Assembly (NCBI GenBank): GCA_921293015.1
Contig: OV121098.1
Coordinates: forward strand, 14,669,016-14,733,015
From: Phorcus lineatus
Lineage: Eukaryota > Mollusca > Gastropoda > Trochida > Trochidae
DNA: 64,000 nt
Reading direction: 5' to 3'
Shown here: positions 12,086 through 52,948 of the stretch, one piece after another
How positions within the stretch are numbered: position 1 is the stretch's first letter
Layout: each line of letters opens with the position of its first letter
Made by a program: the position numbers and the translations under genes
The notes under the pieces: generated by a model
Seen by the model: the letters and a program-made list of their open reading frames with translations, nothing else
What the model was told of the DNA's origin: nothing
The model's database searches: none

Positions 12086-12126
<41 letters not shown>

Positions 12127-31447: not shown

Positions 31448-31563
31448 TTAATATTCATAATATGCCTTGTTGTCCGCTTCCGCTGTATCTAAAATGGACT
31501 CTTGGACTACGGGTGTAGGGGCTTCTTTCACCTCGCCAAGTCCTACCGATTCAAGGTCGGGGT
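31448..31563 (-). CDS. ATP5PF: ATP5PF coding exon 3 (C-terminal extension)
   Basis: Residues 98-135 and TAA at 31450-31448. It opens DPDLESVG, the counterpart of human EDPKFEV, then continues into an acidic tail ending in YYEY. Confidence 0.9.
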
Positions 31564-34500
31564 CTGAAACACATGTTAAACATTCAGGGCTCAAGATAAT
31601 TATTTGGAATTTCACTCCTCAAAATAAAAATTGAGGAGTAAAATTACCACATGAAATAAACTAGGAGTATTTCAAGGTTTATCGTTTTCAGATCCTCATT
31701 CCAAGTGAGCATCTTCTACGATGTTATTGTCGTTGATTAAATTTTTCACACGTTTAAGCTGTAAATAAACGAGTGATTTATCCTGTACACTCAATAATCT
31801 TTGGCATCAAGTTGTAAGTTACATATTGTGAAACAAAATATATCACTCAAAAACATATGTCACTCAATGATTTAATTTTTAATGCGTATATATGAATTAC
31901 CCGTGCATATTTTACGCAGATATGCATCTTATCTGGAGCCCTGACATTTAAGCCATTGTAGCACATTTTTTTATGTTTTATTCATAAAAAGTTTTGTACA
32001 TGAAATATCAATTTATCCACAATGTTATATTTTTTATAGAGGGATAAACCGTTTTGGACTTTTTTTTAATTAGAAGACATAAAAAAAGAAAAGCACTTAG
32101 TTTATAATCATTTACTGATGGTCAAAGAGACTTGACTTTTTTGTGAATATTTTTGAGTAGAATTATTTATCTTTTAGATCTATGTTTTTTAGATCAGAAA
32201 ATTCATGATTTATGTGTCAGGCGAGACAGTTTTTTGAAACAGACATCATAGAGTCACAGAAGGACATGTCAATTTCTGCGTCTCTGAGTTTTACAATATT
32301 TTTACAATACACTGCAGAAATACAAATACCTTCACATAACATAATGTAATTTGAATACATATAAGTTTAAAATAACAATGAATGACAATCCCATTTACAA
32401 GACAATGTTGTTAAAGATCTGTTTAAAGAGAAGTCAAAACAGAAACATTTGTATTTGAAAAGGATCTTATCTAAATAAACAATTTATCGATTCAAGAGAC
32501 TAAACAAAGTCATGACATTTTGCTGTCTTTGGGCAATGGTGTCTATATTGTCATCCCTCTAGATAAGAAGTATATTTGTGTTAAAATGTTAAAGAAAAGT
32601 TAAAATACGCAGGGATAATAATGTCTGTCTCAACCTCATATTCTTTGCTTAAGTTTCATTAAAGCAACAATTTGCCAATTTCATACTAATTATGATGTCT
32701 ACTGTATCAAATCATCGAAACAAATAGATACACGAAATTTTTAAAAATAAACCCTGAAGCTTGTGTCATCTGATAAACTATCTATAGACATCTATGATGA
32801 GAATAAAGTAGATTTTATCATTAAAACCCTAAATTTAATACACAACTAGTTTTCCTAAACTTAACACTTATTTATGGCATGGTTTGTAAGAAATTTGAAA
32901 ATAATTTATGTTTTCCAAATTTAGGACCTCTTTATTCATGTGTTCACCCACAAAATTGTGTTTATTTCATGGGTTAATCCACATTTACTTAAAGAGATTC
33001 AGGGCTAAAATAAGTTTCAAGCTCACAATAGGACATTAATTGGAAACCTTAAAAATAACATTTTGTACCATGCATTTATTCATGATGGAGCTTTTTCTAA
33101 GCAAACAGATTTGTTCCATACCTAGAAAGAATTCTTCTTAGAATAACCGGGCACGCGACTGTATAGGTATCACGTGTGTTAAAGTACCAATTTGTAAAGC
33201 TTGTTGAATCAACTCGGCAATGTCACAGGAGGTACTCGACTATACATTTAACCAGGAGCTATACCTTTGCAACAACAAATTATACCTGGACAGTTTTTCT
33301 GTGAGAACCTTTGCTGCACTTGTAGCGACAGTTTTAATTATTGCCAAACTGTAACAATTAAATTTGTAAGATATGATATTATGAACCTTTTTCTCCAGAT
33401 AAGTGCAATGCCATGAGAAGGATAAGTGTTCTATTATTTTCATAAATGCCAATTTCAAGCGACTAGAGATCACAGCCGGTTTTTAGCATTTTTTTACGCG
33501 AATGATGATAGATTTCTGAAGATCATCAGATCAAGAAACGCAGCGAGGTACGAGGGACAAGTTTCGGGCTGATTTCAATGAGATTGATTATGAACCTTTT
33601 TCTGCAGATATGTGCAATGCCATGAGAGGGATAAGTGTTCTATTATTTTCATAAATGCCAATTTCAAGCGACTAGGGATCACAGCCGGTTTTTAGCATTT
33701 TTTTACAGGAATGATGATAGATTTCTGGAGACATACCTGAGAAGTTGAAGGTAGGGAACTGTGTCATATCCTTGCCGGCGGCGCTGTACATACGATCTAC
33801 CTTCTCCAGTTCCTCCTTGAAAGCAGCCTCAACCTGGGCGGTGGCATCGACCAGCTTTCCTCCTGCCGATCTGCAAATAGGAGTGTTAGTGTCTTTGAAG
33901 GGTAGAGACACAAAATGTTCGTTTGACAATGAAATGAGACATGTATATCCCTTCTTCTTGTTCAGGACATACTAATATTTGGGCACAAGTTTAATGATTT
34001 TAGAAATTTATCATATCTTTATGAAAAAAGAATTTTGAAATTATCCCTAAAGATTTTATCAGACCCGGATCATGTTTTATACAGGGAGTTTGTTAAGCTT
34101 CCTTCAGGCAGAAGATTTTCATTACCCCGTTATGAAACCAATAGAGGTAAAAATACATTCATTCCTTCCAGCGTTCGTCTGTTAATTGATCTTTCATTGA
34201 ATATAATGTCTGTTTATGTATCACATGTATGTTCGTGCATGTTCAAGCTCTGTAATGATACAAACTGAATTCCCTTCGGGGTAATAAAGTATTATTATTA
34301 TTATTATTATTATTAATCAAAACATGTCCTGACCCTAAAATACTGTTCTCTATTTATCAGCTGGAAACACATTTTCACAATAATCCATGTCCATACCAAG
34401 AATGAATTTGACGTGTATGTTGCAGAAAACTGAATAATCAGGGCTCCAGATAATTATTTGGACTCAGGGGTATTTCACTCCTCAAAATAAAAATTGAGGA

Positions 34501-35150
34501 GTAAAATTAGTTATTTTAGTCGTTGATTAATTTTTCCACACGCTTAAACTGTAAATAAACAGGTGATTTCTCTTCGACGAAATATAAAATCGTGATCTTT
34601 GTTTTCATACAGGTTGGCATCTAGTTGGCTACTATTAGAGATATAAAGTTTACACATGTAGATATGAAATTTTATTCTGACAAGTCACGATTACTCCTGT
34701 AAACAAATATCTGACTCGTATTCTGGGAAAGTTGTGCCTATCTGGCACTCATTGATTTCATTTTTAATGCTTATATATCTGAATTACCTGTACATATTTT
34801 ATGCAGATACGCATCTTATTTCCATCATTGATAATGTTGTCTGATCAAGAGTTTTGTTAATCAATCATTAGTTGACATTCTACAAACACTTGAAAACTGG
34901 TAATTAGTGCATAGTAGTTAGTTAGTACCAGGTTTAAACCCCCTTTTCCCCTTGGGCTACATACAAATCAAGAGTTATAACCTCACACATACTTGCTCTT
35001 GCTGGAGTATTCACGGATTTTGTCTACAAAAAGCTGTTGGATGGGGTCAGTCTTCTGCGCTGCAACGGCGGTGAAGCCAATGTTCCGTCTGGCTTGCTGG
35101 AGAACCATCTGCCGGACACAGCCTAGACCGGTCAATACTTGGGACAGCAT
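31448..35150 (-). CDS. ATP5PF: ATP synthase coupling factor 6, mitochondrial (subunit F6)
   Basis: Coding exons (minus strand) 35150-34993, 33870-33737 and 31563-31448 total 408 nt, 135 aa; phases and GT/AG junctions agree. F6 is a peripheral-stalk subunit of F1Fo-ATP synthase on the matrix side, linking the F1 head to the Fo membrane sector. Residues 1-31 form an Arg-containing, acid-free presequence with an RRNIG motif also present in the human protein. The mature part opens with TDPIQQLFVDKIREY (34-48), then an acidic helix (65-80) and the FPTFNF motif (91-96) of the family. The C-terminus runs about 25 residues longer than human F6 (108 aa precursor). The ATG is preceded by an acceptor one base upstream, so a non-coding first exon lies further up, probably near 42.3 kb beside GABPA. 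Identification rests on recalled family similarity and is firm. Confidence 0.95.
31585..31943 (+). mobile_element. CAGGGCTC family element, copy C2
   Basis: Ends CAGGGCTC and GGAGCCCTG, flanked by perfect 5-bp repeats ACATT (31580-31584 and 31944-31948). It lies in ATP5PF intron 2, 22 bp from the exon 3 acceptor. Confidence 0.88.
31949..33378. other. ATP5PF intron 2 body
   Basis: AT-rich intron sequence without recognisable features apart from the element beside exon 3 and the direct repeat beside exon 2. Confidence 0.5.
33379..33735 (-). repeat. Roughly 147-bp direct repeat abutting the exon 2 donor
   Basis: 33379-33525 and 33588-33735 are near-identical ('gtgcaatgccatgagangg', 'agcgactagngatcacag', 'aatgatgatagatttctg'). 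The second copy ends right at the exon 2 donor. The first diverges there and carries no donor. Confidence 0.85.
33737..33870 (-). CDS. ATP5PF: ATP5PF coding exon 2
   Basis: Residues 53-97, including the acidic helix and FPTFNF. Acceptor 'tatttgcag', donor G|GTATGT. About 147 bp of intron directly after the donor is repeated further downstream. Confidence 0.95.
34020..34318 (+). mobile_element. 5'-truncated LINE, 3' end of the reverse-transcriptase ORF
   Basis: The frame ending at 34268 contains LPSGRRFSLPRYETNRGKNTF followed by IPSSVRLL, the C-terminal signature of many invertebrate non-LTR retrotransposons (LPSGRR...TNR.KNSF.P.AI.LLN). It is followed by 'gaattcccttcggggtaataaagtatt' and a (TTA)n tail, the usual LINE 3' end. 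It lies in ATP5PF intron 1, antisense to the gene. Only the last fraction of a percent of a full element's enzyme survives, so it is inactive. Confidence 0.8.
34439..34820 (+). mobile_element. CAGGGCTC family element, copy C3
   Basis: The left end CAGGGCTCCAGATAAT is intact. The right end stops at 'gcatcttatt', missing the terminal inverted repeat. In ATP5PF intron 1. Confidence 0.75.
34993..35150 (-). CDS. ATP5PF: ATP5PF coding exon 1
   Basis: Presequence and start of the mature protein (residues 1-52). Acceptor 'tatgttccag' places its last base at 35152, one nucleotide before the ATG. Donor AA|GTATGT. Confidence 0.94.
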
Positions 35151-35152
35151 TC

Positions 35153-37920
35153 TGGAACATATATCACAAGCTAACACTCCTCAAGCACTTACTAGGTAAA
35201 GTTTCGTGCAAGTGCATATTGGTATCTATACCCAACACGGCTGTATCCTGACCTTCCAACGGACAGATTTAAATGACGCTGAGATTGTTGAGAGTAAGGA
35301 AGAATATTGTCACAAAATTGAACATTTGTCATAGTGCGATCAGTTTATAAAAGTAACCGTTACTTGACTGTCTACTCTCTCTGAATATTCTTTTGCGTAA
35401 ATGTTTGTCAAAAATTTATATGCAAATAATCAGGGTTTTCATTAAGAGCCGGCTGCCGGCGTAAACGGCCGCTTATTATCACAACAGCGCCGGCTACTTT
35501 TCCTCAAATATAATTTTTATGAAATAAATAAGTATCATACAAAATTTCTCAATAACAATCAAAGACGTAGAAAATAACGACTATTGATTAATATTAATGT
35601 ATTGAAAATATAGCCCGTCCACAAGTCTCAACTGTCAGAAAATCTCAGGCAATTTATTTTAAGTTGTACATGCAGTTACTATACCCTCCCGCCGATAACT
35701 TCAAGTTTCGGTTTCGGTTTACAAGCTCCATGCATCGACTTAGCTACAAGATTTATTATGAAACAAGCCAACTATGTTTGGAGCTTGCATTAAGGAAGGG
35801 GGTGCAAAATAACAGCAACCTCTATCATCATATCTGCAGTGATAGCGAAAAGAAAACAGACAGCTTGATCTTTTGGCATTTTTGACAGGGTAAAACAACT
35901 TTCTTGGCGTGTGCCAAGTAGTTGTAACGCATCATTAACTGTATCCAATGAAACAAAATTTCACAAGCCCGTCGGACTACTAACTCTTATCAATTTTTTC
36001 TTTGGAAGACGTTTATTGCTTCAAATAAGGTTTTGAAAACATTAAATAGTCTATTATTCATATGGGAATGGGAAACAATGGGAATTTTGAAGGTAGGTTG
36101 AATTATCAAAGATTATTTCTAAAGGACTAACATCAATCTGTTGAGGAACCAGGAGTGGGAATTACCGGTCTATTTATAGATTGATGAACCAAACAAGAAA
36201 ATTACTTGAATTCATTTCAATATCAAAGGCAAAATCTAATTAAATATTGCTATAAATGTTCAAGAAATATGCTCAAGATGATGAATATCTTCATACTTCC
36301 ATAAAATTTAACCATCAGTACATTACTGTTAAAAAGAATTCAGTTAGGACATGACAAAGTCGGCAAATCAACTGTGACAATCTACTGATGGGAACATCCA
36401 CTTGTTAAAAGGGGAGACAGGTGTAATAACTTCTTCTCAAAATATTTGTACATTTATTCAAATCAAGGTGACTTATCTAAAGCAATGAAAATAATCAAAT
36501 ATTCTAAAATAAATTCAAGACATTTTGAGTCATTTAAAACATAACTGTCAACCCATATTCTGTAATAGACTCTTCTAGCAAGGTTTTCATGGAATTAGGT
36601 CAAGGTATTTCCTGTCGAAGTAGTGGATGGATACAGCTTGGTGACTGCTTCATATTTAGTTACAGAATTGATGTTATTCTAAAATCATAATAGATCAAAA
36701 TAGCAATGTGTGTACTTTGAGAAATTGATAATGAAAATATAAAAATTTATATATGTCTGCACTTTGTACTACAGGTAAAAGAATGTGCCAATATTTACCC
36801 ATTATGTGGTGGGATATTTAGGTTACTTTATAATATATGAGTTCATGTGGTATACAATATATGTCAGATCAACAGTTCAAATCAAAACTTTTAAAATCAT
36901 GCCTTGATAAATCTAAAAGAAAAGTTACATTGAATTTTTTTTTTAGGATTATTCGATTTATTTTCATAGAAACACTAGCTATAATTTTGTTCTCATAAAC
37001 TTGTCATCACTATCATATTATTCAAACACACAGGTTTATTAAGAATTATCTCTGGACATGTCAACAACTTAAGACTAGGCTGAAAATAATGCAATTGACT
37101 GTTGATGGTTTGAATAATATTAAATTTCTCGGGCTAGTTGAATTGTTTGTGCGCTAGTGACATTTTAAAGTTACTAGCCCGAAAGGCGTGTGGTAGATTT
37201 TGGTTAGTTTCTAGCCCTGACTGCCGATGAGTAAAAAGTTGCATAATTAAATATAATGCTGTAGATTGCAAATGTTTTGGATTTTTATTTTTTTTAAAAG
37301 ATACAATGAAAAGATTTTTAACTACAAATAAATATCTTTTTGTCAATCAGTTTCAGTGTAAATAATGAATATATATCATATTTTTGTTATGGAACTAATA
37401 TTTTCGTGCAAGATACAATAGTTACTCATATGTGTAATTTTTTTAGTCTAGATTATAATCTACCACATTCCATTTAATTTTAGATAATGAGTTGATTTAC
37501 GAAATTGTTTTGTCTCCTACAGTTGACAGGTTGATAGTCTTAGTTCTAATTTTGAAATTGATGAAATTGGTATATGAGTGACTTGTCAAAGGATTGATTT
37601 AATCTTGATCAAAGTATTCGTTTGTTTCTCTTGTTCATTTGTTAAGAACTGTACTGCTATCATAAACTTTGTATTTTGAATGATTATCTTAATAAATTTT
37701 ATTAGCTGTCATGAATCAAGATAGCTGTAAAAAAAACAAAAAAAACATCTTAAAATCTTTTTTGGAAGTGTGGTATGTGAGATACATCTGTAGCAGGAAA
37801 ACACCTCAACCAGAATCTTACATATAAAATCTGCAATTTATATTCAATACACAAATCTAAATTCAAGCCCAAGTGTGCTTAAAATGGCACTATTGCATGC
37901 TTAAAACTACAAATTTTCTA
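35153..37920. other. Presumed 5' intron of ATP5PF, distal part
   Basis: No coding exon is seen. Notable bits: a GC-rich dyad 'gccggctgccggcgtaaacggccgc' near 35449-35473 and an inverted pair TCGGGCTAGT / ACTAGCCCGA at 37128-37182, both probably ends of decayed elements. Confidence 0.4.
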
Positions 37921-38032
37921 TGGGGGAGGCCCCCCAAACCCCCACCAATGGGAGGGCGCACCCTCCCATACTCTCCCCACGACGTCTACGCCGTCGTTAT
38001 GACCCTTGCGGGGTCATGGGCCTCTAACTTTC
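37921..38032. repeat. Cluster of four GC-rich hairpins
   Basis: Successive dyads: GGGGGAGGCCCCCC (37922-37935), TGGGAGGG-CGCA-CCCTCCCA (37949-37968), ACGACG-TCTACGC-CGTCGT (37979-37997) and ATGACCC-TTGCG-GGGTCAT (37999-38017). The patch is far richer in GC than its surroundings. Just upstream is 'ggcactattgcatgctt', resembling a family D end, so it may be part of a mobile element. Confidence 0.7.
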
Positions 38033-38879
38033 TTGGTTAGGCCTCTTACCTAATTATTTAATGAAAAGGCTGAAATAAGAATATTATCCATGCAAATGTC
38101 ACTTTAATGAATCAAGGGCATGCGTTAGTGATGTTAATGTTTCAACAACAACCTTTTTTCAATAAATATTTACCTGAAATGTTTTTATGTATATTGACCT
38201 AACATATTTCTTTACATTCTTTATTACCATGATATGCTGAGATAATGATGAATGGTATTTTGGATAGGTTTGCATGAAAATGTGAACCATGCATGCAAAT
38301 AATTGATCATCCCAAAAAATTATAAGATATTTAAAGCCTCGCGATCATACAAATGTTCTTTTATATGCAAAATGTGAGAACAAATCCACAAAAACACGAA
38401 GAAGCGATCAAACATACTTTAAGCCTTGGTTAGTTGAAATTTAGAACGGAGGTCAACTCCAAAAGGACGACTGTACAACACGAAATAACCCGACCGGTGC
38501 CCTTAGAGTTGATATGATATATTCCTTACAACTGTTTTGTAATGTAAGTTGGTTAGAAGACTTCTGGTGAAGAAAACTACAAAAATGAGTTTATTCAACA
38601 TTTTTTGCTGGAAAGTTCTTATTGAGCTAAAATGTTAAAATCTTTACTTTAGAATGTAAGAATTTAAAATTCAAACAAACCAAAACATTTACAAATATGC
38701 AATAATCCAACACAATCTTACACTCAGAATATTCTCTTTTGCCATCTGGAAAACGTTTTAATGTTCCTTACCATAGGTCAAATCGAACCAGGAAATCATT
38801 CATACCCTCGAGTATTACAATTTTAAACAAGAGTTCTGAACATTGTTAATGATATGAAAACTGCTTTGTGCGGCTTGTG

Positions 38880-39062
38880 TAATTATATAAATATGTATGT
38901 GTGTTGTTGTTTTTGTGTGTATCTATATTGCATTGCATAGTATTATCCTTCCATAGTATTGAATTCTTATTGTTAAGTTTTACATGTATCTTGTCATGCT
39001 CTGTCGGATGTAAGAAGAATTCCCTTCTGGGTAATAAAGTGTTATCTTATCTTATCTTAATA
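38880..39062 (+). mobile_element. LINE 3' end relic
   Basis: 'gaattcccttctgggtaataaagtg' followed by a (TTATC)n tail parallels the LINE end at 34268-34318. No protein fragment is recognisable upstream. Confidence 0.6.
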
Positions 39063-39451
39063 AAAGTCGTTAAAATTATATTTTTCAGTTACATTTTCTC
39101 TCATGGTCATAAAGCAAATTTTCATTTGTATGTCGTTTGATTTTGTTACATTTTGATTTAAACGAATTACAGATAATCTACCTCGTGGTAAAAAAAAAAC
39201 AAGTAAAAAATTTATTTGCATATCAAGAACTAACTGATCCATATTGCAATCGTTGTGGATATATCAAATCAAATTGATTACAATATCGTTGAAACAAAGC
39301 TGATAGTATAACGACAAACTTAAACTGTTCTTCTGTGTAAGAGCATTGTAATGCGTGTATTCAGGCATTTTATGTCCTTTTCAAGGTATGTCAAACTCAA
39401 ACATAGGGTTGCTGGTGTTATCAAATTAGGATGTCAGAATATATATGTAGG

Positions 39452-39979
39452 ACTCAGATCTGTGGCGGGTCTCTAATCTATGGCGGATCTCCTTATCTGT
39501 GGCGCGTTTGATTGTTAGACTGTTTCATGACGTCATGCTAAGTGACGTCATTGTGCGATGACGTCATAATAGCTAACTGTTCCCGTCGTAAAGCCCAATT
39601 GCGTCGCTAGCGAAATAATTAGGGAAGACACAGAGAGATATTGCAAACGGATAACGACCAAATAACAAGAGTCCATATCCCAATTACGAAAATACATTAA
39701 ACAATACCTTACATGTAAACAGGACATTTACGGCTTCATGCCACATCAATTGTGTTTATTTTGTAGGATCTTTTTCGCCCTCGGTGAGTCTGTCTTCTTT
39801 AGCCCTAAGATATTGAAAGACTATCTTTTTTAACCCTTGGATTCCTGTCGACGGATTTTAGGGTAAGTTTGTCTGGCGTAAGGTTTGGTTAATCATTGCA
39901 GAAAAATACAAAAAAAGGTACAAATGTCAGGCATTTGAAAATCTGCCATAGATTTGGAAATCCGCCACAGATTTGAGGC
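39452..39979. mobile_element. MITE E with long inverted repeats
   Basis: The left end CTCAGATCTGTGGCGGGTCT continues to ATCTATGGCGGAT. The right end, inverted, is CTCAAATCTGTGGCGGAT followed by ATCTATGGCAGAT. Together they give about 37-bp imperfect inverted repeats around 530 bp of non-coding DNA. It contains three CRE palindromes. Confidence 0.75.
39528..39566. promoter_or_regulatory. Three perfect CRE palindromes
   Basis: TGACGTCA occurs at 39528-39535, 39543-39550 and 39559-39566, spaced 15 and 16 bp. CREB/ATF bZIP dimers bind this octamer. The cluster lies about 2.8 kb from the candidate ATP5PF/GABPA promoter, inside element E. Confidence 0.65.
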
Positions 39980-40089
39980 CCGCTATAAAACGACAAGTTA
40001 TTGAATAATTACATTAGCACGGGTAAATTAAAAAAAATCATATTATCTTCATTACCTCATGGGACATAAAGTAATGAGTGTTGTTAGTG

Positions 40090-40521
40090 TTAAAGTGACA
40101 CAGAGTATGTTTATGAGTTTTCCATGTCACTTCAATACGATCCAAAATACCAAATATGCTGAGATATGCTAAATCACCACTGACATCTTTATCTCTAAAG
40201 AATGATAATCGGAAAACTGTCATAGAAATGTTACGAAGTCGAATTTCTGCGTCCCATTTACATGTATCTTTCTTAAATGATCTACTCAACACTACCAAAC
40301 CATGTTGGTTTTAACGCCTTCTGTTAATAAGTTTCCGGAATAACTTTTGGGTCCTTGTCCGGTTTTCGATCACAAAACATGACTTAAAACTGTTAATTGT
40401 ATAAATGCAGAGCCTACAATCATTTTGACACTGATTTTCAGAGACAACCACTACTTCTCGATGAAATGATACCATTTATATAGGGTGACATATTTGACTC
40501 CAACAACATACTCTGTGGTTC
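40090..40521 (+). mobile_element. Family B TTAA-type element, copy B1
   Basis: Left end TTAA-AGTGACACAGAGTATGTT, right end AACATACTCTGTGG with the final bases lost. The inverted core TTGTCCGGTTTTCGATC is at about 40357-40373. Confidence 0.75.
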
Positions 40522-40524
40522 GCT

Positions 40525-40670
40525 AGTTCCAGCCGTTGCTCGCAGGTTTCACCGCAATGCATAGCCACGATGGTGTACCGGGCTTTATCCCCGCAATAAT
40601 ACTAGCAGCCGTGATATAAGTGAAATAATCTTGAAACGGCGTTAAACACCAACTCACCGCACCTAACCTT
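40525..40670 (+). mobile_element. SINE tail, molluscan type
   Basis: The segment ends 'gtgatataagtgaaataatcttgaaacggcgttaaacaccaactcac', a form common at SINE 3' ends in bivalve sequences (recalled, not searched). 44830-44885 is a related tail with (CACT)n. Confidence 0.45.
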
Positions 40671-41149
40671 TAAGTATAAATGTATTACGGGGTCTAAATT
40701 CAGACTTTGCCTTGAAATTTCATTTGAAAACATTTATTTGTAGATTTTTAACAACAATGGCATCATTGATATTCTGTTTGTCTAGATCTAACTTCAGAAG
40801 AGAGTTTTGATTTAAGTTGATTACTTCGATATTTTGTCATCTTTCATAGGAGAAAGCGCAACCGGAATACTTATCTTGGAGAAAATAATTTGAAAGGGGA
40901 GTAACGTTTTCACAATGATGATGCCATGCAGAATAAAAAAACGCCAGACCTTTGAAACATAACTCTAAGCATGTTTTTAAAGTTTACAGGATAGCTCATA
41001 AAAGCAACTTTTGTAAAATTAAAGAAATGTGCATGGTATACAAGTCTATATAATAAATCTGAACACTCCGTGACTCGTTGATGTCACGTATGCCATACGT
41101 CATCACTGGTGTAATCGAAGAGTACCGCTTGCTTCTGAAAAGTATAATA

Positions 41150-41594
41150 TAAAGGGGCAGTAATAATTTGTTTTGAGAATTTCTTTCTTCAAATATTCCC
41201 CAATAAACATAATATTATGCCAATCGTCTTATCTTCAGAGTGGCCGAATATCTCGTTAGTCAACCAATGGTCGTTTAGAAGAAATTATTAGTATCAACCA
41301 AAAATCATTCTCGCCCAACAGAGTTGAAATCTGATTGGATGCAATCAAAGTTAATTGTGCAATCAGCGACGCCATTACAAAGATATCATTCCATGCGCTT
41401 CAGATATTTCCGTATGCTAAATATTATTCGAATATGAACTATGCGCTGAGTCGTTACACAACACATTCGCCTAATTTAGCAACTCCATCATTGTATAGGC
41501 CTGTGTGACGACAAATTTATCCATGCATGCGGTGTTTTCATTGGCTGAAATATTGGATGGTTGTTGAATTGTTTCCTTCAATGCCCCTTATATA
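41150..41594. mobile_element. Inverted-repeat element with TATAAAGGGGCA ends
   Basis: Ends TATAAAGGGGCA and TGCCCCTTATA. Most of the interior (about 41320-41560) matches the reverse complement of 50950-51220 in element F, including a 'gattggatgcaatcaaagt...gtgcaatcagcgacgcc' module. Confidence 0.6.
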
Positions 41595-42299
41595 TCATAG
41601 AAAGAACAAAAATGTTTAAATCTCTAGTAAACATTGTTAGAAACAGCTAGAGTTGGAATCGATGATAATCTTATCTTCGATGGCAATGCATGTCTAATTT
41701 TTTTCGAAAACCAGAATGTTTACAAATATTTCCATATTTATATCTCTCAAACTAAACGTTTTCAAATAAATTCCTGTACATATCTCTTTCCGCATCTTGC
41801 TGTACATTGTTGTAAGATAAATGCTGTAAATATTTTGAGAGGGCTTATCTAAGTTTTATAAATTGTGCCAAATCTTTTTTTTGAATGAATAAATTATGTT
41901 TCAATCAAAACCATTTCGTTTGCCATAATGCCAAATATCATAGTCTATATCAGATAACTTACTGACAAATGGATGCAAAAACGCATCATTTAAGTAATTA
42001 TAACCATAACAAACCAATAGGGGCTAATATCCTAAAACAATAATGAAACAAACCCGATCGTGGCCCAATGTTTTAAGAATTTAGCCTTGTAGAAAATTCT
42101 TGTATTTTCGGAAATGTAACTGTTCAAATGCTGTGATGGCAGCATTTTATTCGTATTTCTCATGTAAATTTGAATAGGAAAAATCATGGTATTTATATGT
42201 TTGTGAAACAGCTATTTTATTTTGCACTTTTTTGACGATGACATTTGAAAATACGCAAGAAGTCGTTAGGTGCCGCTTTTGAGAATAAATAAGTTGTAG

Positions 42300-42442
42300 G
42301 AAAATGCAACTTTGCGGATATCACGTGACTCAAGGTGGAGAATTTTGCGCTTTTGTGTTCAATTTCCGCTTATCGCAAGTTTCCGGTTCGATATTTTACA
42401 AAAACAACGAATATTTTGTTTGCCAGTGACTTTATAACACAC
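42300..42442. promoter_or_regulatory. Candidate bidirectional ATP5PF/GABPA promoter and GABPA exon 1
   Basis: The patch holds an E-box TCACGTGAC (CACGTG at 42322-42327) and two ETS cores (TTCCG at 42364-42368 and TTCCGG at 42381-42386, i.e. CCGGAA on the minus strand). A near-consensus donor CAC|GTAAGTAT follows at 42442/42443 on the plus strand. A short non-coding GABPA exon of about 50 nt ending at 42442 would splice to 45367. ATP5PF would start from the same patch leftward, but I could not place its first donor. In mammals the two genes share a GABP-bound bidirectional promoter, which supports the reading. No TATA box is seen. Confidence 0.6.
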
Positions 42443-42581
42443 GTAAGTATCTTCGACTTAAGGTTTGGTTAGGTTTTAACGTTTTCTATTCGATATTTGG
42501 ACATACAATGTTTTTTTCTTGGCGTGTGGCTGACCGATGCAAGCCTCATCTCGAACAGGATGTTGAGCATGTTTAGGCTGG

Positions 42582-42748
42582 CCGGAAGTTTTCGTTATGA
42601 ACAAGAAGCAGACACCTATTTCCTCTCATGCTTTGTACATTTCATGATGGTTTTACATGTACAGTTAATAGTTAATGGTCACGTACCCTTTTACTGACCC
42701 CGAAAATTCTAAGAGCATGTTGGGTTTTTGCCACCGCCATTTTTCCGG
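42582..42748 (+). promoter_or_regulatory. ETS and YY1 motifs in GABPA intron 1
   Basis: CCGGAAGT at 42582-42589 is the best GABP consensus in the area. CCGCCAT (42734-42740), a YY1 core, is followed by TTCCGG (42743-42748). All lie within 310 bp of the putative exon 1 donor. Confidence 0.4.
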
Positions 42749-43583
42749 TTCGGCGAAACTAGGACAAACGACAACCAATCGTTCAAACAAGGATGGATGT
42801 TATTTTGAACCCGGACACGGTTTAACATATATCTTCTTCCTTGAGAAGTTGTGTTTTTCACACGAGAGGAATGTTACGAATGGTTGTTAAGTGTTGACTA
42901 CCATAACGGGATGATAACCTCTGGTTCTAGCTATTGAGAACGTTCATTATTGGAACTGTCATTGTGGTCTATGTTTACTTTGTTTGGATTGGTGGCTATT
43001 GACATCGGATGTTAAGGTTTGTTGTGGTGTTCCGTTATGTTAAAGTGAGTTCATTATTATATTCAATAGTTTAAGAACCTGTTGGTTGGAGGTCAAGTAC
43101 TTGCCAGATTTTAGTATTGTTCAACAAACAGTTATAATGTCAATTTGTCAACTGACTTTCCCCTCATGAAGTAAAGAAAAATAACAAATGGTAAAATTTC
43201 AAAAAGAGTTTTGTTCAAAACCTGTTTGTTATCGATAGAGAAAATATTTTGTGTAATCATTAGATTATTATTTGGAAGTTGTCTTGTTTCATATTTAAAA
43301 TATATTTTCTATCCCTTATAAAATGTTAGTTAAAAAAATTCTAGAGGGGGTCCGGGGAAAATTTGCCCTCTCTTTTGGCTTGGTGTCCCTTAAAATTTTA
43401 ATGCATGGGATATTTTCATCATCAAAAGGGATCCCATCTCAGAATACACCCAATGACCCCCCAATGCTAATCTCCGAGGAAGAACACTGTACATTTGTAG
43501 TCAAAATATGAAGTCTAATTAAAAATCATTTTAAATAGCAAACCAATAAATCACCTAACTTTGAATCCTGCTTTCAAAAGAAG

Positions 43584-43802
43584 CAGGGCTCAAAATAAGG
43601 TGCGTATCTGCGTAAAATACGCACGGGTAATTCATATATAAGCATTAAAAATGAACTCAATGAGTAACAGTTACGCACAACTTTCTAAGAATACAAGTCA
43701 GATATTTGTTTACAGGAGTAAGTAGTCAAAATATAATTTAGTTTCTGCATGTTTGATCTTTACATCTCGAATAGTGAGTCCAAATAATTATCTGGAGCCT
43801 TG
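43584..43802 (-). mobile_element. CAGGGCTC family element, copy C4 (internally deleted)
   Basis: Both ends are present (CAGGGCTC, TCTGGAGCCTTG) but only about half of the interior remains. Confidence 0.78.
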
Positions 43803-44076
43803 CAGAAACATGAAGAATGTCATATTAGGGGTATGGATTAAGTACCAAATACAGAGGATATAAATGTCAATGTCATGACATGTTTACAGCATAGAAACCT
43901 GAATGTATTTTATAAGAGTGAGCAAGAGCGGACAGGATGTTATTAATAGTTAAACATACCATGACATGAATTTTTAAAAATGTTTTTCATATGCAAGAAA
44001 TCATAAGTTTAAGGAAAGTACCGTCTTTGAAACAGTTGGCTATGACATGAAATAAGACATTTATAAGAAGTCATTA

Positions 44077-44536
44077 CAGGGATCCAGATAATTATTTGGA
44101 CTCGGGTATTTCACTCCTCAAAATAAAAATTAAGGAGTTAAATTACCACATGAAAAAGACTAGGAGTATTTCAAGGTTTATCGTTTTCAGATCCTCATTC
44201 CAAGTGAGCATCTTTGTCAATGTTAGTCGTTGATTATATTTTCCACACGTTTAATCTGTAGATAAACAAGTGATTTCTTTTTGATGAAATATAAAATCGG
44301 CAATCTTTGTTTTCATACAGGTTGGCATCAAGTTGACTACAATTTGAGATGTAAAGATGAGACATGCAGAAATGAAATGTTATTTTGACAAGTCACGATT
44401 ACTCCTGTTAACAAATATCTGACTCGTATTCTGGGAAAGTTGTGCGTATCTGTCACTCATTGATTTTATTTTCAATGCGTATATCTGAATTGCCAGTGCG
44501 TATTTCACGCAAATATGCATCTTATCTGGAGCCCTG
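44077..44536 (+). mobile_element. CAGGGCTC family element, copy C5 (full length)
   Basis: About 460 bp, ends CAGGGATCCAGATAA and TTATCTGGAGCCCTG, flanked by perfect 5-bp repeats CATTA (44072-44076 and 44537-44541). The longest copy in the window. Confidence 0.88.
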
Positions 44537-44829
44537 CATTAGCAGTGATCCTGGTCTATGGTTTTTAACACTGAACTTCCTTCAAAAGGTCCTGTTTATT
44601 TAGTGTAAATATAACTCAAAAGAGTGTAAATGTTATATATTCTAACTATTATAGTTGAGCAATCTTATTAAAATCACATCGTCGATTCACTCCCCAGTCT
44701 AATATTGCGTTGTTACTTTTCATTATTCCATGATCTGACAAAATCTCATAGATATATGCATCCAAATGAACTTTTACCAGGAAATGACCCCAGAAAGTCT
44801 CTCTGACATGTTCTCTCTACTTTCTAGTA

Positions 44830-44885
44830 ACTAATGACTGACATATTGCCGAAGCGCCGCTAAACAGTAACACACTCACTCACTC
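44830..44885 (+). mobile_element. SINE tail ending in (CACT)n
   Basis: 'gactgacatattgccgaagcgccgctaaacagtaac' followed by 'acactcactcactc' parallels the tail at 40640-40670. Confidence 0.45.
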
Positions 44886-45312
44886 TACTCTCTATTGTGT
44901 GTATGCAACAAGAACTGTGTAAGCAAGCTTATTTTTATTATACCCGGTCACCAAGAAGAACAGATATGGATTTTGGCTATTGCTATGTCCATGTGTGTCT
45001 GTATCTGTCAGATTAAACTTTTCTCAGCAACAGTTTGAAATAGGATAACCAAATTTGTTTTGTGGCTTCAGAATACCGATTACTTGATGGAGTTTCCTAA
45101 ATGCATTAATTTTAACCTGAGTTAATTCCCTTGTTCGGTTTTTGGGAGGCTACAGGTTTCTCTACAACTATTTATGATAGGGTTACTAAATTTAGTGAGT
45201 GGTTTCAGGGTATCGATCCCTCGATGGAATTTTAAAATGAGAATTATTTATTATATTTGGAGTTATTGCCCTTCTTCAGTTATGTTCGGTGATAAAGGAA
45301 AATAGTGAGAAC

Positions 45313-45324
45313 CAAGATGGCGGG
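45313..45324 (+). promoter_or_regulatory. TISU/YY1-type initiator (possible alternative GABPA start)
   Basis: CAAGATGGCGGG matches 11 of 12 positions of the TISU consensus SAASATGGCGGC, an element that doubles as YY1 site and start codon in genes with very short leaders. Its ATG (45317) is in frame with the GABPA ATG at 45368 and would add 17 residues. A competing acceptor signal at 45366 argues that this DNA is normally intronic. Confidence 0.45.
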
Positions 45325-45367
45325 GATCACTTTGTCACCTTTTTTCATAATGTTCTATGTTCACAGA

Positions 45368-45489
45368 ATGAAGCGTGCTGGGTCGCCGGTAGCGGTGCTA
45401 GGGGAGGACGGGACGGTGGAAATACAGGTACAGGAGGAGAAACGGGCTCGTACCGAGGGGGACGAGGAAGAGGTCTGCATAGATGAGGG
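45368..45489 (+). CDS. GABPA: GABPA coding exon 1
   Basis: The acceptor 'ctatgttcacag' ends at 45366, one base before the ATG. Encodes residues 1-40, acidic and Arg-containing. Donor GG|GTACGT. Confidence 0.85.
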
Positions 45490-48400
45490 GTACGTTGCTA
45501 TGGCTACTGTCACATGGGTCCCGAAATCTGAACCAAGAACTCTCCTAAAAAATCTGGCTGAACCCAACAATCCTTTTCCCTGTGTTACTTCATAGTTATG
45601 TCATAACTAATATTGATTGCAGATATGTTTAAATGAAAATATCATATAAAAACAGAAATACAAGTGTTACATGAATGAAAAATGAACATTAGATAAATCA
45701 AATACCAGCACTCTTTCAATTATTCTAGATGTACCAACAATTTAAAGTTAAATGTTTTAAAACTCGACTATGGTTTGATAATATAACAGAAACATCTTGT
45801 GAAAACGATGTATCCAATGACAGTTGCAATTTGTTAGGTAATGGCTATTTTCCAGTCCAGTTATCACTTCTATAACATAATTGATGATGGATAAGAAGAA
45901 ATGCATGGACCATTTATTTATATAAATCTATATAACAAGTCTGGATTATATAGTTTATGTGCTGAGCTAAGTATTGAGATAGAAATCTGGGCCGACTTTC
46001 ACGTAGCTCACTTAGGCTAAGGTGATCGGAACCCATGTCAAACGTATTGGTTAAGCATGCCCTTAGCACTTGATGAGATTTGTAAAATTTGGAACTGATG
46101 CATTGTTTGACTAGAACATCTTGCCCAAATCATATGGAACTAGTCCAAGGCTAAAATGAAGTTGTATCTCTTCCCAGTGTTGTGTACGAGGAGGAAATCC
46201 TGCAACCCCAGCAGCCTCCGCCCCAGTATCAGAACCTCATCATCCAGCACATGGACATAGCCGAGCCCCTGCAGACTCTCAAGCGACTCCTCGAGGTGCG
46301 GCTGCAGTGTTCTCTTGGGGAGCACCAGTTTTATCTACAGGACAGCATACAGGTAGGTGCACCGTCTCGGTCAACATTTTCTCATTAGGGCACATTGTCT
46401 TATGATTGGCTGAATCAATACGTCAGCTTTGCAATAGTAATCTGTCAAATAAATGTGAATGCATAATCGATGGAGCGACAATGCTGTAAACTATCGGTAG
46501 TTTAATGGTGTCTTCTGGATAATACTAATTAGAAGATAAATAGTTGCGTATGTAAAATTTCCGGGATTCATTGTTATTCAACACCCGCAAATTTAGTTTA
46601 AAACCGACGGCGTTGATAGTCTTGTTACAATTTGCCAATGCTTTTAACTTGCCATATATTGCAAGACGGGACTCTGTCTACTTGATTTGGTGTAATCACA
46701 TGGCAAAATATAGATAGTACTGACCCTTATTTACAATAACATAATTCATATTATTACGAGACCCCCACGTTTAGGTTTAATGATATTATAATCCTACCAT
46801 TTGTTTGTGTCAGCGTTAAATTTAGATATTAATTATCCAATATCTTACCCAACTCTGATAGCCATAGACGATGTATATTTCAGCTGGATGCCAATAAGAG
46901 CCTGGTTGACCAGTGTGTGCAGGGTGATGGCATGGTCCAGATCAACCTGGAGGTCAAATCGCAGCCAGGTACAGGTAGATTGGGTACTGACCACCGGTCA
47001 GAGAATACTTTGTTCACGGTTTGTCAAAGAATACTTTGTTCACAGTTTTTCAAATAATATCTTTTCAGTATTTTTCAATGAAAATGCATGAAATCAGACA
47101 TAGTCCACACAAAAAAATTCATTTCAGTGATGTTAAAAGTTATGTAATTATCTTTAATCATATGAGATCATTGAAAGGGTTGATTTTTTTGTACCGGAAT
47201 GTTTTATCTAGAAATGTTGTTTCTCTTTCAGGAGTGAAACCAAAGATAAATATATTGGACATCCTGAAAACAGCAGATGAAATTGAAGCACCAGTCACAG
47301 AAACAGGTGATAAATTTTGATTTGGGCTAGAAAAAAATATGAAATTTGATAGTAAATAATATTATATCTTAACTGTCGTGATACATTTCAATTTGTTTAG
47401 ATTATGTATCCATTTGCACATTTACAGCATTCCAGGTCAATAGTTTTTTTTTTTTCAAGATTATCAGGGAAAAGGGGAGGTGCCGACTAAGGATGTGCCG
47501 CATTATCGGTATACCGGTTTATTGCAATACAGAAACAACACGATACGTACCTGTACACTCATCTGAAAATATCCAATAAATTGGAGGTTTTAAAATGAAC
47601 AATTTCCGTGTAAAATTGCAGAAAAAATGTAACCAAAAAAATTTGATTTAACTGAAAGTTTTAACACATAGTGTTAACATGGAAAGTGAAAATAGCAAAG
47701 ACATGTAAAAGTCCGAAACCAGTCACTGAATTATCTCTCTTTATAAAGCGATGGGACAGTTAAGAAAATTGGCAACTGCAATTCCATCTCTTAGCTCGCA
47801 CTTCATGGTTCACAGCCAATAATGAGAGTGTTACCTTTGAAATTTCAAATTCACAAGTCTCTTACCGGTCACTGTAAATGACAGTTTTAAGCTCAGTGTT
47901 TCAAAGCACTCATTTCCTTTTTATCGTATCAAGCCATTTCAGTGGGTTAATGTTTCAAAACAAGACTAAAAGGGGGATGATTTGAGTACAAACATTTCTG
48001 AAAAAACATCTTGGGGGTGATTTGGGAAGAGCAACCTAACATTAAGCCCTGCGTGCCAAGGATGCTTTTCTTGATAATAACCAAGATGCCATGATGAAAT
48101 AGCATTCTTTCACAAGTGTCTGCCTTTGATTAAATTTATCGAATGTTTCTTTTCCTCCACAGTTACCCAGACTACACAGCAAACAGGTCAAGGCAACACA
48201 AAGGTGGTGATCCCCCTCCCAGAAGAATCAGAAAATGTTACGAGATGGATTGTCGACCAGAATTTCCGAAGAGAACAGGAACGCTTGAAGATACCGTTTG
48301 GTGAGTCACTCATGAGTGCCACTTAAAATTAACCCTGTTTTGGCGATTAAAATTTCAATATATTGTCTCTTGGGTAAAAGCTTTATCTGAAGGTTCGAGT

Positions 48401-51400
48401 GCACTTTTTGATGCATTGCATGTTCGGAGGCTGGTGCAGTAAACCAATTTTAAATTTTTTCCAACGTAATCTTCCTTTGTTTTTACCATTTGGTGATGAA
48501 AGGCATTAACAATTTTTGGTGGATTCTCCTATATTTTGCTTCAATTGGCCGTGGTGAAGAAACTACTAACCTAATTGTTACTCTGGGGAAGGCAAAATTT
48601 TGTAAGGAAACAGGGTTGATTTTAGAATATTTCTTTACTGGATTGATTGTATACAAACATTATGCGGAAAACTGTGCTGGTTGAAGCTTTGAGAGAAGGA
48701 AGGAGACATTCATAATTTAGGGGTGCAACCATGCAGGTAGGTCACGATACGATACGTATCTCGATACAGCAGCCACGATACGATACGTATCGCGATACAC
48801 AAAATAAAAATCACACAAGAAAATTATATGAAAAAAATGGTCAAATACCTTCTGTTTGAAAAGAATCAATTTGAACACAAAATCGATGATCTACACTTTA
48901 CATTGGAGGAGTGTCTAACATTTGTGACAACTGACAAATACATAGAAATTCAGGTTAAACAGATAATCGGTTTCAATTGTTTAAACTTTCAAGAAAACAA
49001 AAGTGTCTATAACATATTTTTCGAGGGATTTTATTAATTGTGGTTTTATATCAGTTGATAAAAATAAATAATAATTAAATTCTAAGTTGAAACATCATTA
49101 AAAAATTCAAGTGATCAATGATCATGCCAGATATTCCGGCCATTCTAAAGCTGTTTTGAAACTTCCTGTATAGGCTAGATGATGCTATCAAACGATGGCC
49201 GAATGAGTTTAGATGGCGACAATATCAAACTTGAAGTTGAAAAAGTCCCTTCTTCACTTAAATCTTCCGTTTGGCAAACATTTGTTTTTCCAGTGGAATA
49301 CGATGACGGGGAAAACTGTCAAAAAAGGATGAGATGGTATATCGTCTTTGTCAACTAAGAATGAAGAAGGCTAACATTGAAATCGAACTGGGCCTTACCG
49401 ATCAAGCGAATTGATCTGATTGGCCATTCGCTTAACTTTCAACCAATGAGTAAACAGCATAACAATGTACTTTCGCTTTAGATCGTTTTCCAAGAAAGCT
49501 GTGTTTGTGTGAAGTGTTTTGAGTCTCAGAACACGTTATCATTTATAATATTATGAAATTATTTTTAAAAAATAAATAAAGTTTGATTGTCTTAATTATA
49601 TCTAGTACAATTAGGATTAATGTTTATTTATTTTGGTTAGAATTTACATTATATACGCTTTGTATTTGAAATTTTTCGAAAAAATATTCATTGACGATCA
49701 CAGAACAAAAAGTGAAAACATTTGAGCAATTACAACAGTTTGTTTAATAACGACGATCTCATATTGCATTGTAGAGAAATTTTTAAGCATTTAAGGCAAG
49801 TTACGAGCTTAACACAAACCAAACGATTAATCTACTGGGGAAATGTGAAGATTGATATGTTTGAAAAGGATTAAATTTCATTACATTTGTATCACGTAAC
49901 GTATCGTATGTCAAAAATCGCGATGCACCGGTGTATCGGTGTATCGTTGCACCCTTAATTCATATGGAAGAAAAGAGTGTCAACTTGATATGAAAGCTTG
50001 TTCAAAAACTTGAAACATCTTCTATTATAATTAACTGTATATCTTTGTGATGCCAGATCCTGTACAGTGGAGCGAGGTTCATGTTCGACACTGGATTCAG
50101 TGGGCTGTGAAAGAATTTGGACTCGCTGGAGTGGACATTGACAACTTCCGCCTGAGCGGCAAACAACTAACTGAACTGACGCACCCAGAATTCATACAAT
50201 TCATACCTCAGGACCCGGGCGATATATTCTGGACACATCTTGAACTTCTACGCAAATGTAAATTTGTTGGTAGGTGACTTTGTTTTCTGTTTATTATCAA
50301 CTCAATAAAAGATCAAAACGAATTTCAGATTTAACTTTTAAAAGCACATCTGTAACAAACTTTCATTCTTGAGGCTTTCATTTATACAAACGATTATCAA
50401 AATATCAAAAAGTAAACCTTGATGTTCAACAAGATTGATGAATTTCGGATGAAAAATAAAACGCTTTTTATATTATTATTTTGCCCACCACTATAAACCA
50501 AACTTTTCCTATTTTCATATCGGATATTGATTTACAATTCAAGTAATGATCTTTCAGCTGTGATGCAACAACCAACTCCACACGCCATCACCACCATCAC
50601 TGTTTCCACTTCGGACACTGACGGTAAATATTAAAGGATGTTCAACATTTCTCATCACATATCACTTATATCTAAGCAAGTGAACTATAGATTCAAATTG
50701 CACAGAGGATAAGTGTAGCAGTAAAGAAGCATCCAGAAGGCCTCCCTTATTATCCCCCGCAACTTTGGACAACTATTGCATCATATTTGACATCATATAG
50801 AATTTCATTTCACTTTGTAGAATCAAATTTCACTTGGTGAAAGTAACATCCATTCTCTTCCCACGGAGGTACCTCCGTCATAAATTCCTATACAACCTCT
50901 GTCTTAATATAAAGGTTTGTGGACTTCCGTCAGTTTCCCCTGCCGGCTCAATATTGCAACTTAAACTACCAGGCAATATTTCAGCCAATGAAAACACTGA
51001 ATGCATGAATAACATATTTGTTGGCACATAGGCCTATGCAATGATGCAGTCGCTAAATGAGGCGTAAAGATGACTCAAAGTGCAAGGTGCATATTACAAT
51101 AAAGTTTACCTTTTGGAAAGCTTACAGAAATAATCTAGGCTATTTGAATGATAAATTTTGAAAAGGCGTCGCTGATTGCACAAGTTACTTTGATTGCATC
51201 CAATCAGCATTCTCCATTTCCAGCCCAAGAAACCCTCATATTAAGACAGAGGTTGTACAGGATTTATGACAGAGCTACCTCTGTTTGGAGAGAATGAGAA
51301 CCATCCTGTTTGGGGCAAAATGAATATGCTCTCAGTTCATGTCAAATTTAAAAATTCTTTTGCAGGTCGGGTAAGGACAATGTCAAAATCATCTCGGCCA

Positions 51401-52948
51401 AGATCTCCCAGAATAACTGGGGAGGAGCGATTATCTCCAGGGAACAGAACAGGTATGATTTGACTGTTCAGTCATAAGTTCAGTAAAATTCTCACTAAGA
51501 TTTTCACTAATAACTGAAATCGTTAACACTCCCTTTCCAAGAGTTATCGCTCGTTATTCCGTCACTCCTGTCTGCTCCAGGTAACAATGGACAGATCCAG
51601 CTGTGGCAGTTCCTCCTGGAGCTCCTGACGGACAAGGACTGCCGCGAGATCATCCAGTGGGTGGGAGACGAGGGGGAGTTCAAACTCAACAACCCCGAGA
51701 TGGTCGCTCAGCTCTGGGGACAGAGGAAAAATAAACCAACCATGAACTATGAGAAACTCAGTCGTGCCTTGAGATATTACTATGATGGAGACATGATTGC
51801 TAAGGTGAGGCTTACATGCTAAGGTCTGCAATGTTTCGCAGGCTCAAGAACATATAAACCATAACTACTAAATCTCACTTCTTCTTGTGGTCACACTATG
51901 CTGGGCCCATGTATGCTAAAGTCAGTCAAATTGTCTCCGATATTGCTAGGTTGGTACTAAACAATTTTTATTCCCCAAGAAAAGTTTTCCGGTCCAGAAA
52001 ATTGTAAGGCCTAGCTCAATCATCCTCATGTGAAGTAGTGTCTTTTGGAGTTGTCATTTTCTTCCTACATTTATTTTTGGCCGTTTCCATGGAAATGCAA
52101 CATCGAATTTTGTGTCTGGACCAGAACTTAAAAACTACAAGGCCAAGTGCATTGAAACTTGGTATATGGAATAATCATCTTGTGAAATGGTGCCGTTTGG
52201 GATTTTTATTTTCTTCCTACATTTATTTTTTGCCATTTCCATGGAGATTAAACTTAAAATTATTGATTCCAACTTATCGATACCAACTTTAAAACTTGAA
52301 CAGGTAGTAATATGAAACTAAGTAGTTAAAGAATCATATTCTGAGGAATGAATTTATTACCAATGATCTGCTCAGGAAACTTACAGATAAGAATATAAGT
52401 TGTTAGAGTTTTCTAAAGAATACAGTGTCTGAGCTGTTTTTCAATATATTTCACCCTTGTACTACTAGGCAGGGGATATAGCCCATTCTGTCTGCTTGTT
52501 TCACGTGTTAAAGAAGGTATATATGCTGAAAAGAGGTCAGCCTACCTGGCTTGTACAATTTTAAGTACACCAATTGTCAACACATTACATGACATTGCAG
52601 AAATGTTTAGGAGGGCTGAATAATTCTAAAACCACAAGCCCTGCTTGTCGGCAAGGTATGTAACTATTTGAACACTGAATTCGAGGGCCCTTACCAGATT
52701 AGAAGTAGTCATGCCAGGCCTCTCATTGGCACCAAGTAATTCTAATCTTTGACGACTTGTTCCAGGTGCATGGAAAGAGGTTTGTGTACAAGTTTGTGTG
52801 CGACCTCAAAATGCTCCTCGGTTACAACGCGGGGGAATTGAACCGACTGGTAGGAGAATCTGCGGAGAAAAAGTTACAGAGAGTTCGGGAAAATCTTCGG
52901 CCCTTGGGAGTTAAACGTGTGGACCAGAAAACTCAAACGATGTGTTGA
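45368..52948 (+). CDS. GABPA: GA-binding protein alpha (ETS transcription factor, NRF-2 alpha)
   Basis: Ten coding exons: 45368-45489, 46178-46352, 46884-46968, 47232-47306, 48163-48300, 50057-50269, 50558-50623, 51366-51452, 51581-51804, 52766-52948. They give 1368 nt, 455 aa (human 454), and all phases agree. GABP alpha binds GGAA sites and, paired with ankyrin-repeat GABP beta, activates nuclear genes for respiration and translation. The N-terminal OST (ubiquitin-like) domain spans about 68-140, the PNT/SAM domain 199-268, the ETS domain about 325-410 with recognition-helix arginines R382 and R385, and the GABP-beta-binding C-terminal helices follow (411-440). The linker before ETS keeps [20 protein letters not shown]. 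The start is the first ATG after a strong acceptor and gives MKRAGS, resembling human MTKREA. It diverges from ATP5PF, as in vertebrates. Identity is certain on the ETS exons. Confidence 0.97.
46178..46352 (+). CDS. GABPA: GABPA exon 2
   Basis: Residues 41-99, with the start of the OST domain ([20 protein letters not shown]). Acceptor 'tcttcccag', donor CAG|GTAGGT. Confidence 0.95.
46884..46968 (+). CDS. GABPA: GABPA exon 3
   Basis: Residues 100-127, OST domain continued. Two in-phase donors exist: after 46968 (GTACAG) and after 46974 (GTAGAT). The first matches the human spacing without an insertion. Confidence 0.88.
47232..47306 (+). CDS. GABPA: GABPA exon 4
   Basis: Residues 128-152, opening [12 protein letters not shown] (human IEPKLNILEIVK). 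Donor G|GTGATA. Confidence 0.93.
48163..48300 (+). CDS. GABPA: GABPA exon 5
   Basis: Residues 153-198, Gln/Thr-rich then [21 protein letters not shown] before the PNT domain. Donor G|GTGAGT. Confidence 0.94.
48718..49957. mobile_element. hAT-like non-autonomous element in GABPA intron 5
   Basis: Ends TAGGGGTGCAACCAT and ATCGTTGCACCCTTA with subterminal GATACGATACGTATC repeats are typical of animal hAT-derived elements. It is about 1.24 kb and no transposase is readable. No clean 8-bp target duplication could be aligned. Confidence 0.65.
50057..50269 (+). CDS. GABPA: GABPA exon 6 (PNT domain)
   Basis: Residues 199-269 hold the whole Pointed/SAM domain, from DPVQWS to WTHLELLRK. Donor G|GTAGGT. 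Confidence 0.96.
50558..50623 (+). CDS. GABPA: GABPA exon 7
   Basis: Residues 270-291, a short Thr-rich linker. Acceptor 'tgatctttcag', donor ACG|GTAAAT. Weakly conserved; supported by phase on both sides. Confidence 0.82.
50866..51283. mobile_element. MITE F in GABPA intron 7
   Basis: About 48-bp inverted repeats (GAGGTACCTCCGTCATAAAT..., inverted partner GAGGTAGCTCTGTCATAAAT...) surround about 320 bp. It ends 82 bp before exon 8. Single ends of the family appear at about 18402-18455 and 31147-31195. Confidence 0.75.
51366..51452 (+). CDS. GABPA: GABPA exon 8
   Basis: Residues 292-320, including the basic linker and [14 protein letters not shown]. Donor G|GTATGA. Confidence 0.94.
51581..51804 (+). 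CDS. GABPA: GABPA exon 9 (ETS domain)
   Basis: Residues 321-395: most of the ETS DNA-binding domain, with [20 protein letters not shown]. Donor AAG|GTGAGG. Confidence 0.97.
52766..52948 (+). CDS. GABPA: GABPA exon 10
   Basis: Residues 396-455: the end of ETS ([13 protein letters not shown]) and the C-terminal helices containing AELNRLV-like [11 protein letters not shown] at 52946-52948. Confidence 0.96.

Follow-up and report, generated by a model that had tools for sequence, protein, structure and literature searches.

How old is the divergent gene pair formed by ATP5PF (coupling factor 6 of the ATP synthase) and GABPA (the alpha subunit of GABP), and is it a shared promoter that keeps the two genes together? 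The question is raised by a stretch of 64,000 nucleotides from the gastropod Phorcus lineatus (assembly GCA_921293015.1, 957.8 Mb in 74 contigs; contig OV121098.1, C41:14,669,016-14,733,015), which we call the window and whose coordinates are used throughout. Both genes lie in it as divergent neighbours, and their pairing is best read as dating to, or predating, the protostome-deuterostome ancestor. The spacer between them contains a candidate promoter region from which ATP5PF, and possibly also GABPA, could be transcribed.

Identity and arrangement of the two genes

Three minus-strand exons, the first preceded by a strong acceptor-like TTCCAG/AATG, join into a complete reading frame of 135 aa (coding 35150..31448):

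34993..35150, minus strand: ATP5PF coding exon 1, start codon at 35150
33737..33870, minus strand: ATP5PF coding exon 2
31448..31563, minus strand: ATP5PF coding exon 3, C-terminus and stop

The protein matches PF05511 with E=3.8e-30, and its ten matches in the PDB are all sequences of ATP synthase coupling factor 6 / subunit F6. Judged by this membership of the coupling factor 6 family, the minus-strand gene is the orthologue of ATP5PF. On the plus strand, ten exons with GT-AG internal borders yield a complete frame of 455 aa (coding 45368..52948):

45368..45489, plus strand: GABPA coding exon 1
46178-46352, 46884-46968 and 47232-47306, plus strand: GABPA coding exons 2-4, GABP-alpha N-domain
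48163-48300, 50057-50269 and 50558-50623, plus strand: GABPA coding exons 5-7, PNT domain
51366-51452, 51581-51804 and 52766-52948, plus strand: GABPA coding exons 8-10, ETS domain and stop

This protein matches PF11620 (GABP-alpha, E=4.3e-31), PF02198 (PNT, E=3.7e-26) and PF00178 (ETS, E=1.4e-34), and its top PDB match is GABP alpha 1awc. With the GABP-alpha N-domain, PNT and ETS in one protein and all above the cut-off, the plus-strand gene is, by its domain content, the GABPA orthologue. Whole-genome searches with the PF05511 and PF11620 profiles returned two matches each, every one in the window exons; by these searches, each gene is present in a single copy. A pseudogene or paralogue reading of both genes was ruled out by the complete frames and the confinement of family matches to the locus.

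The start codons of ATP5PF and GABPA are 10,217 bp apart and enclose the following interval:

35151..45367: spacer from one start codon to the other, 10,217 bp, of which identified repeats make up at least 41%

Sixteen stop-to-stop open reading frames of at least 60 aa lie wholly inside it, of which 11 were scanned against Pfam and the other five lie within repeats. None of the 11 reached the cut-off (two gave weak matches below it, E 0.06-0.23), so that a small coding exon or a gene for a non-coding RNA may have gone unseen, and neither an Rfam family at gathering score nor a tRNA was found within the window. The pair thus has the gene order of a bidirectional pair, divergent and adjacent with no intervening gene detected. 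An earlier sequence-only reading of the window had placed ATP5PF on the minus strand and GABPA on the plus strand with no gene between them, which the exon assembly and spacer scans bear out; its outer coordinates, 31448 and 52948, coincide exactly with the ends of the two stop codons.

Age of the pair and wider gene order

If 20,000-30,000 genes are assumed, the chance that two named genes are both adjacent and divergent is 1.7e-5 to 2.5e-5; for two genes already on one chromosome it is 5e-4 to 7e-4. Descent from a bilaterian ancestor is therefore the best reading of the arrangement, by parsimony from one invertebrate genome and the mouse literature, and the pair is probably older than half a billion years. 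Its orthologues are adjacent in two distant animal lineages, P. lineatus from its genome and mouse from the literature, and the two genes are in this sense a microsyntenic pair.

The mammalian block has the order MRPL39-JAM2-ATP5PF-GABPA-APP, located in humans on chromosome 21. In P. lineatus, the contig of the pair also carries APP, at a distance of about 4.5 Mb, and, about 4.0 Mb away, a gene that we take to be ETS1/2-like. The co-location of APP fits retained linkage with human chromosome 21 genes; conservation of the wider mammalian block around the pair was rejected, APP being some 4.5 Mb off. A TGS-domain search aimed at MRPL39 gave two matches, both on other contigs, which tell neither for nor against linkage of that gene. 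To the left of the pair lie an ABCC-like transporter, zinc-finger-like genes and an immunoglobulin (Ig)-domain gene, and to the right an NHLH-like basic helix-loop-helix gene and an Ig/FN3-like gene (labels mostly by eye). The left Ig gene, at 18-22.3 kb, carries I-set/V-set domains and is lachesin-like by eye. No mammalian neighbour was recognised among the nameable genes in the window and 60 kb on each side, the left Ig gene being uncompared with JAM2.

Mobile elements in the spacer

Repeats identified in the spacer amount to 4,145 bp (41%), a lower bound as common words were skipped by the repeat search. Three stand out:

35431..38072: non-autonomous DNA-transposon-like element, 2,642 bp
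39439..39986: miniature inverted-repeat transposable element (MITE)-like repeat, about 548 bp, inverted ends of about 65 bp, many copies at 95-97%
43583..44537: fold-back repeat, about 955 bp, inverted arms of about 200 bp, 82% alike

The largest is separated from the ATP5PF start codon by 280 bp. Among 39 copies scored of 11,726 candidates, five other listed copies are 99-100% identical to it and the rest 88-97%. Target-site duplications of 5-6 bp (by eye) were seen at all six of the other copies read, one of which lies in a TA run and is uninformative, and the window copy has an imperfect duplication, AAATAA. Its longest open frame spans 95 codons. The element appears to be young, DNA-transposon-like and non-autonomous. 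It has CAGGGTTTTCATTAAG-type ends, and its near-identical copies are found on several contigs; its relatives include a group of copies at about 93%, in which a stretch of about 2.1 kb precedes a detached end piece of 0.47 kb. Stretches resembling the 955-bp fold-back repeat were also seen, by eye, in the ATP5PF introns.

Two CpG peaks were rejected as promoters. More than half of the peak at 35.0-36.0 kb, considered for ATP5PF, lies within the mobile element, and none of the listed motifs occurs in 34.9-35.8 kb; the peak at 39.25-40 kb is mostly MITE.

A candidate promoter region in the mid-spacer

A third region combines a cluster of motifs with a raised observed/expected ratio of CpG (CpG o/e):

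42301..42850: candidate promoter region, from motif cluster and CpG o/e
42322: E-box
42380, minus strand: ETS site
42582, plus strand: ETS site
42734 and 42742 (minus strand): YY1 site and ETS site, together the ETS-YY1 composite
42775: CCAAT
42687..42745, minus strand: hypothetical ATP5PF non-coding leader exon, with donor AAAAGG/GTACGT at its end

CpG o/e is 0.9-1.4 in 500-bp windows over this region, against 0.65 for the whole 64,000 nucleotides, and GC is at most about 0.41. Eight kinds of motif were scanned over 184 kb in 600-bp windows. Those starting at 42201-42301 hold seven pattern matches, which correspond to six distinct sites (YY1 being matched by two patterns) of four kinds. Four-kind windows occur at three places in the 184 kb; besides the mid-spacer, these are at about -6.7 kb and about -59 kb relative to the first of the 64,000 nucleotides.

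The ETS-YY1 composite sits on the minus strand and faces ATP5PF. Its pattern, CCGGAAN{0,6}ATGGCGG, has 53 matches in 957.8 Mb (three of them one tandem repeat on contig C12) versus nine for a reversed-pattern control, an excess of about sixfold, and 6e-4 would be expected in a stretch the size of the spacer, where one is observed. At the 30 of the 53 loci that were fetched, none of them the window locus, the median CpG o/e in 600 bp is 0.97, against 0.65 for the window. The excess over the control suggests that this promoter grammar is in use in this invertebrate. The donor of the putative leader lies 55 bp past the composite and scores 8.4 (top 1%), while the acceptor of the ATP5PF start exon scores 8.8, a value reached by 1.1% of 6,833 AG sites.

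The start of GABPA

Closer to GABPA, beyond the fold-back repeat that separates it from the ETS-YY1 composite, lies another candidate start:

45312..45325, plus strand: YY1/TISU-like element CCAAGATGGCGGGG, with an ATG that is in the GABPA frame, 51 bp ahead of the presumed start codon

AAGATGGCGG occurs five times in 184 kb on both strands, the GABPA occurrence included, which gives an expectation of about 8e-4 per 60 nucleotides of one strand. TISU elements are located downstream of the transcript start, at up to +30, and supply the start codon in 64% of TISU genes (PMC2518114). A T-rich tract followed by AG lies between the TISU-like element and the presumed GABPA start codon. As an alternative fit, GABPA may be transcribed through a mid-spacer leader, with donor-like sites at 42442, 43016 and 43044, spliced to the low-scoring acceptor before 45368. 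The sequence is compatible both with a single shared promoter and with two promoters separated by about 2.6 kb. Bidirectional-promoter pairs are defined by transcript starts within less than 1 kb of each other; the observations that bear on this are the 10,217 bp between the start codons, the candidate leader exon at 42.69-42.75 kb and the TISU-like element at 45.31 kb.

Weighing the explanations

We propose, with a probability of about 0.6, that ATP5PF and GABPA are an anciently retained pair in which ATP5PF is transcribed from the mid-spacer ETS/YY1 promoter and GABPA from there or from a start of its own. The two genes would have been joined already in the last protostome-deuterostome ancestor and kept so in the mollusc lineage, while genes outside the pair were reshuffled and mobile elements stretched the spacer to 10 kb. 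ATP5PF would be transcribed leftwards from the promoter at about 42.7 kb, its short non-coding leader exon being spliced over about 7.5 kb to the start-codon exon, and GABPA rightwards, either from that region too or from a YY1/TISU-like start of its own some 2.6 kb on. By binding the ETS sites, GABP could in that case switch on an ATP synthase gene as well as the gene for its own alpha subunit. In a bolder version, which we consider unlikely, GABP drives its own alpha-subunit gene and an ATP synthase gene through a single bidirectional ETS/YY1 promoter. This self-reinforcing circuit would be older than the split of protostomes and deuterostomes, would have held gene order in place from then on, and would have outlived the mobile-element invasion through intron growth on both sides of the promoter.

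Several observations weigh against this proposal. It draws on the sequence of one invertebrate genome. The motif-cluster score is an unvalidated promoter predictor, and the composite pattern was picked after the site had been seen. The splice model was trained on just 11 sites, all from ATP5PF and GABPA; nine minus-strand donors in the spacer, including that of the leader, fall in the top 2%, and three outscore it. Strong donors accompany the composite at six of 30 loci in sense orientation (three of these being one tandem repeat) and at three of 30 in antisense, so that donor enrichment next to ETS-YY1 composites is not clear among the 30 of 53 loci. In the joined leader there would be an out-of-frame AUG that overlaps the ATP5PF start, except if transcription begins just past that AUG. 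For GABPA, the acceptor directly before the start codon is weak (score 0.5, with 22% of AG sites as high), and the YY1/TISU-like element, of comparable rarity to the composite, favours a separate start about 2.6 kb from the composite.

The last point leads to a retained pair with two independent promoters, ATP5PF being driven from about 42.7 kb or nearer and GABPA from the TISU-like element at 45.31 kb, so that adjacency would be a relic or be held by chromatin or enhancers. This we place only slightly below an even chance. The rarity and in-frame position of the GABPA element speak for it, as does the habit of TISU elements of lying near the transcript start and often providing the start codon (PMC2518114); the rare ETS-YY1 composite, however, which lies in between with a CCAAT and an E-box close by, could serve both directions, and the T-rich tract with AG comes after the TISU-like element, immediately ahead of the other start codon, though the site is low-scoring. 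Neutral retention, by slow rearrangement in this lineage and with no functional constraint, is possible rather than probable. The spacer tolerates large insertions, and APP and the presumed ETS1/2-like gene, still on the contig, indicate that large-scale linkage was kept; but the lack of recognised mammalian neighbours among the nameable nearby genes, with the JAM2 comparison set aside as above, indicates that local order was not frozen. That ATP5PF and GABPA came together independently in this lineage, by convergence or chance, is very improbable. A single invertebrate genome was examined, and the Drosophila orthologues Ets97D and ATPsynCF6 are not known to be neighbours, yet the probability of such a joining is about 2e-5 (or that given above for genes on one chromosome) under the assumed gene number, and the divergent orientation is identical to that in mouse. 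Common descent of the pair is far likelier than independent juxtaposition.

The sequence-only reading had held that the arrangement dates to early bilaterians and is maintained by shared regulation. Parsimony with mouse supports the origin. Maintenance by shared regulation is not demonstrated, with a start-codon gap of 10.2 kb, a young element at 280 bp from the ATP5PF start codon and a sequence that fits one or two promoters. Shared regulation of the pair is nonetheless plausible and now has a concrete candidate region, the present spacing being no proof by itself.

Other features of the window and genome

Zinc-finger-like genes (by eye) at 3-1274 and 9369-12269 appear to be recent tandem duplicates with internal RGRGRPRKKPRPE repeats, and similar frames occur in the 2.6 kb to the left of the window. 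The long open reading frame at 9369-11357, the single one scanned of this group, had no Pfam match. Tandem units at a spacing of 137 bp or multiples thereof occupy 7842-8608 and keep near-identical minus-strand open frames.

The mitochondrial contig (C74, 19.1 kb) carries cox3-nad3-nad2-cox1-cox2-atp6 on one strand and nad1-nad6-cob-nad4-nad5 on the other, each read along its strand. Ten of the open reading frames were checked with Pfam; nad6 matched below its cut-off, and nad2, matching a general antiporter family only, was named by position, while cox1 was identified apart from these. A stretch of some 2.8 kb at about 6.2-9.2 kb of the contig consists almost purely of TA, as noticed in its translation. 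The two-block arrangement is presumably that of chitons, vetigastropods and octopus, and on this gene order a mollusc is likely. The mitochondrial gene order of the vetigastropod Haliotis rubra equals that of Octopus vulgaris except for three tRNAs (PMC2291457).

Comparison with known systems

Chinenov 2000 and Patton 2006 reportedly described the bidirectional promoter of murine Gabpa/Atp5j (coupling factor 6). This murine pair is tabulated with experimentally validated bidirectional-promoter sites for GABPA and SP1 (PMC3121118). The P. lineatus pair comprises the same two orthologues in the same divergent order, with ETS motifs in the spacer where mouse has GABPA sites. It differs in that its start codons are 10.2 kb apart, its spacer is filled with repeats, GC in its candidate region is at most about 0.41, and the pair is known from sequence alone.

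NRF-2 (GABP) and YY1 also drive the human bidirectional pair PREPL-C2ORF34 (PMC2713978), in which, as in the P. lineatus spacer, GABP-type ETS sites and a YY1 site share one compact region between divergent genes. The genes are different, however, and the compact human promoter has reporter, electrophoretic mobility shift assay and chromatin immunoprecipitation evidence. Promoters of a sponge have a YY1/Kozak motif some 10 bp downstream of the start site, and E-boxes are four times as common in those that are bidirectional (PMC4773876).

No report of an ATP5PF-GABPA pair outside vertebrates was met in a literature search limited to titles and abstract openings. An analysis of eight eukaryotes describes bidirectional pairs as conserved among vertebrates only and shuffled between invertebrates and vertebrates (PMC3403606); a mammalian bidirectional pair that is divergent in a mollusc is a counterexample in gene order to this view. 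The pair also bears on the age of GABP control over respiration genes and offers a clean test of shared regulation versus slow rearrangement as the preserving force. Very old microsyntenic pairs are a known class, to which ATP5PF-GABPA adds a pair. The conserved ancestral metazoan pairs of Irimia 2012, as described in PMC5429095, fall into two kinds: adjacent genes that have cis-regulatory elements in common, and developmental regulators paired with a bystander. ATP5PF and GABPA resemble them as orthologous neighbours held over very long times, and differ from them in joining a general activator to one of its likely target genes.

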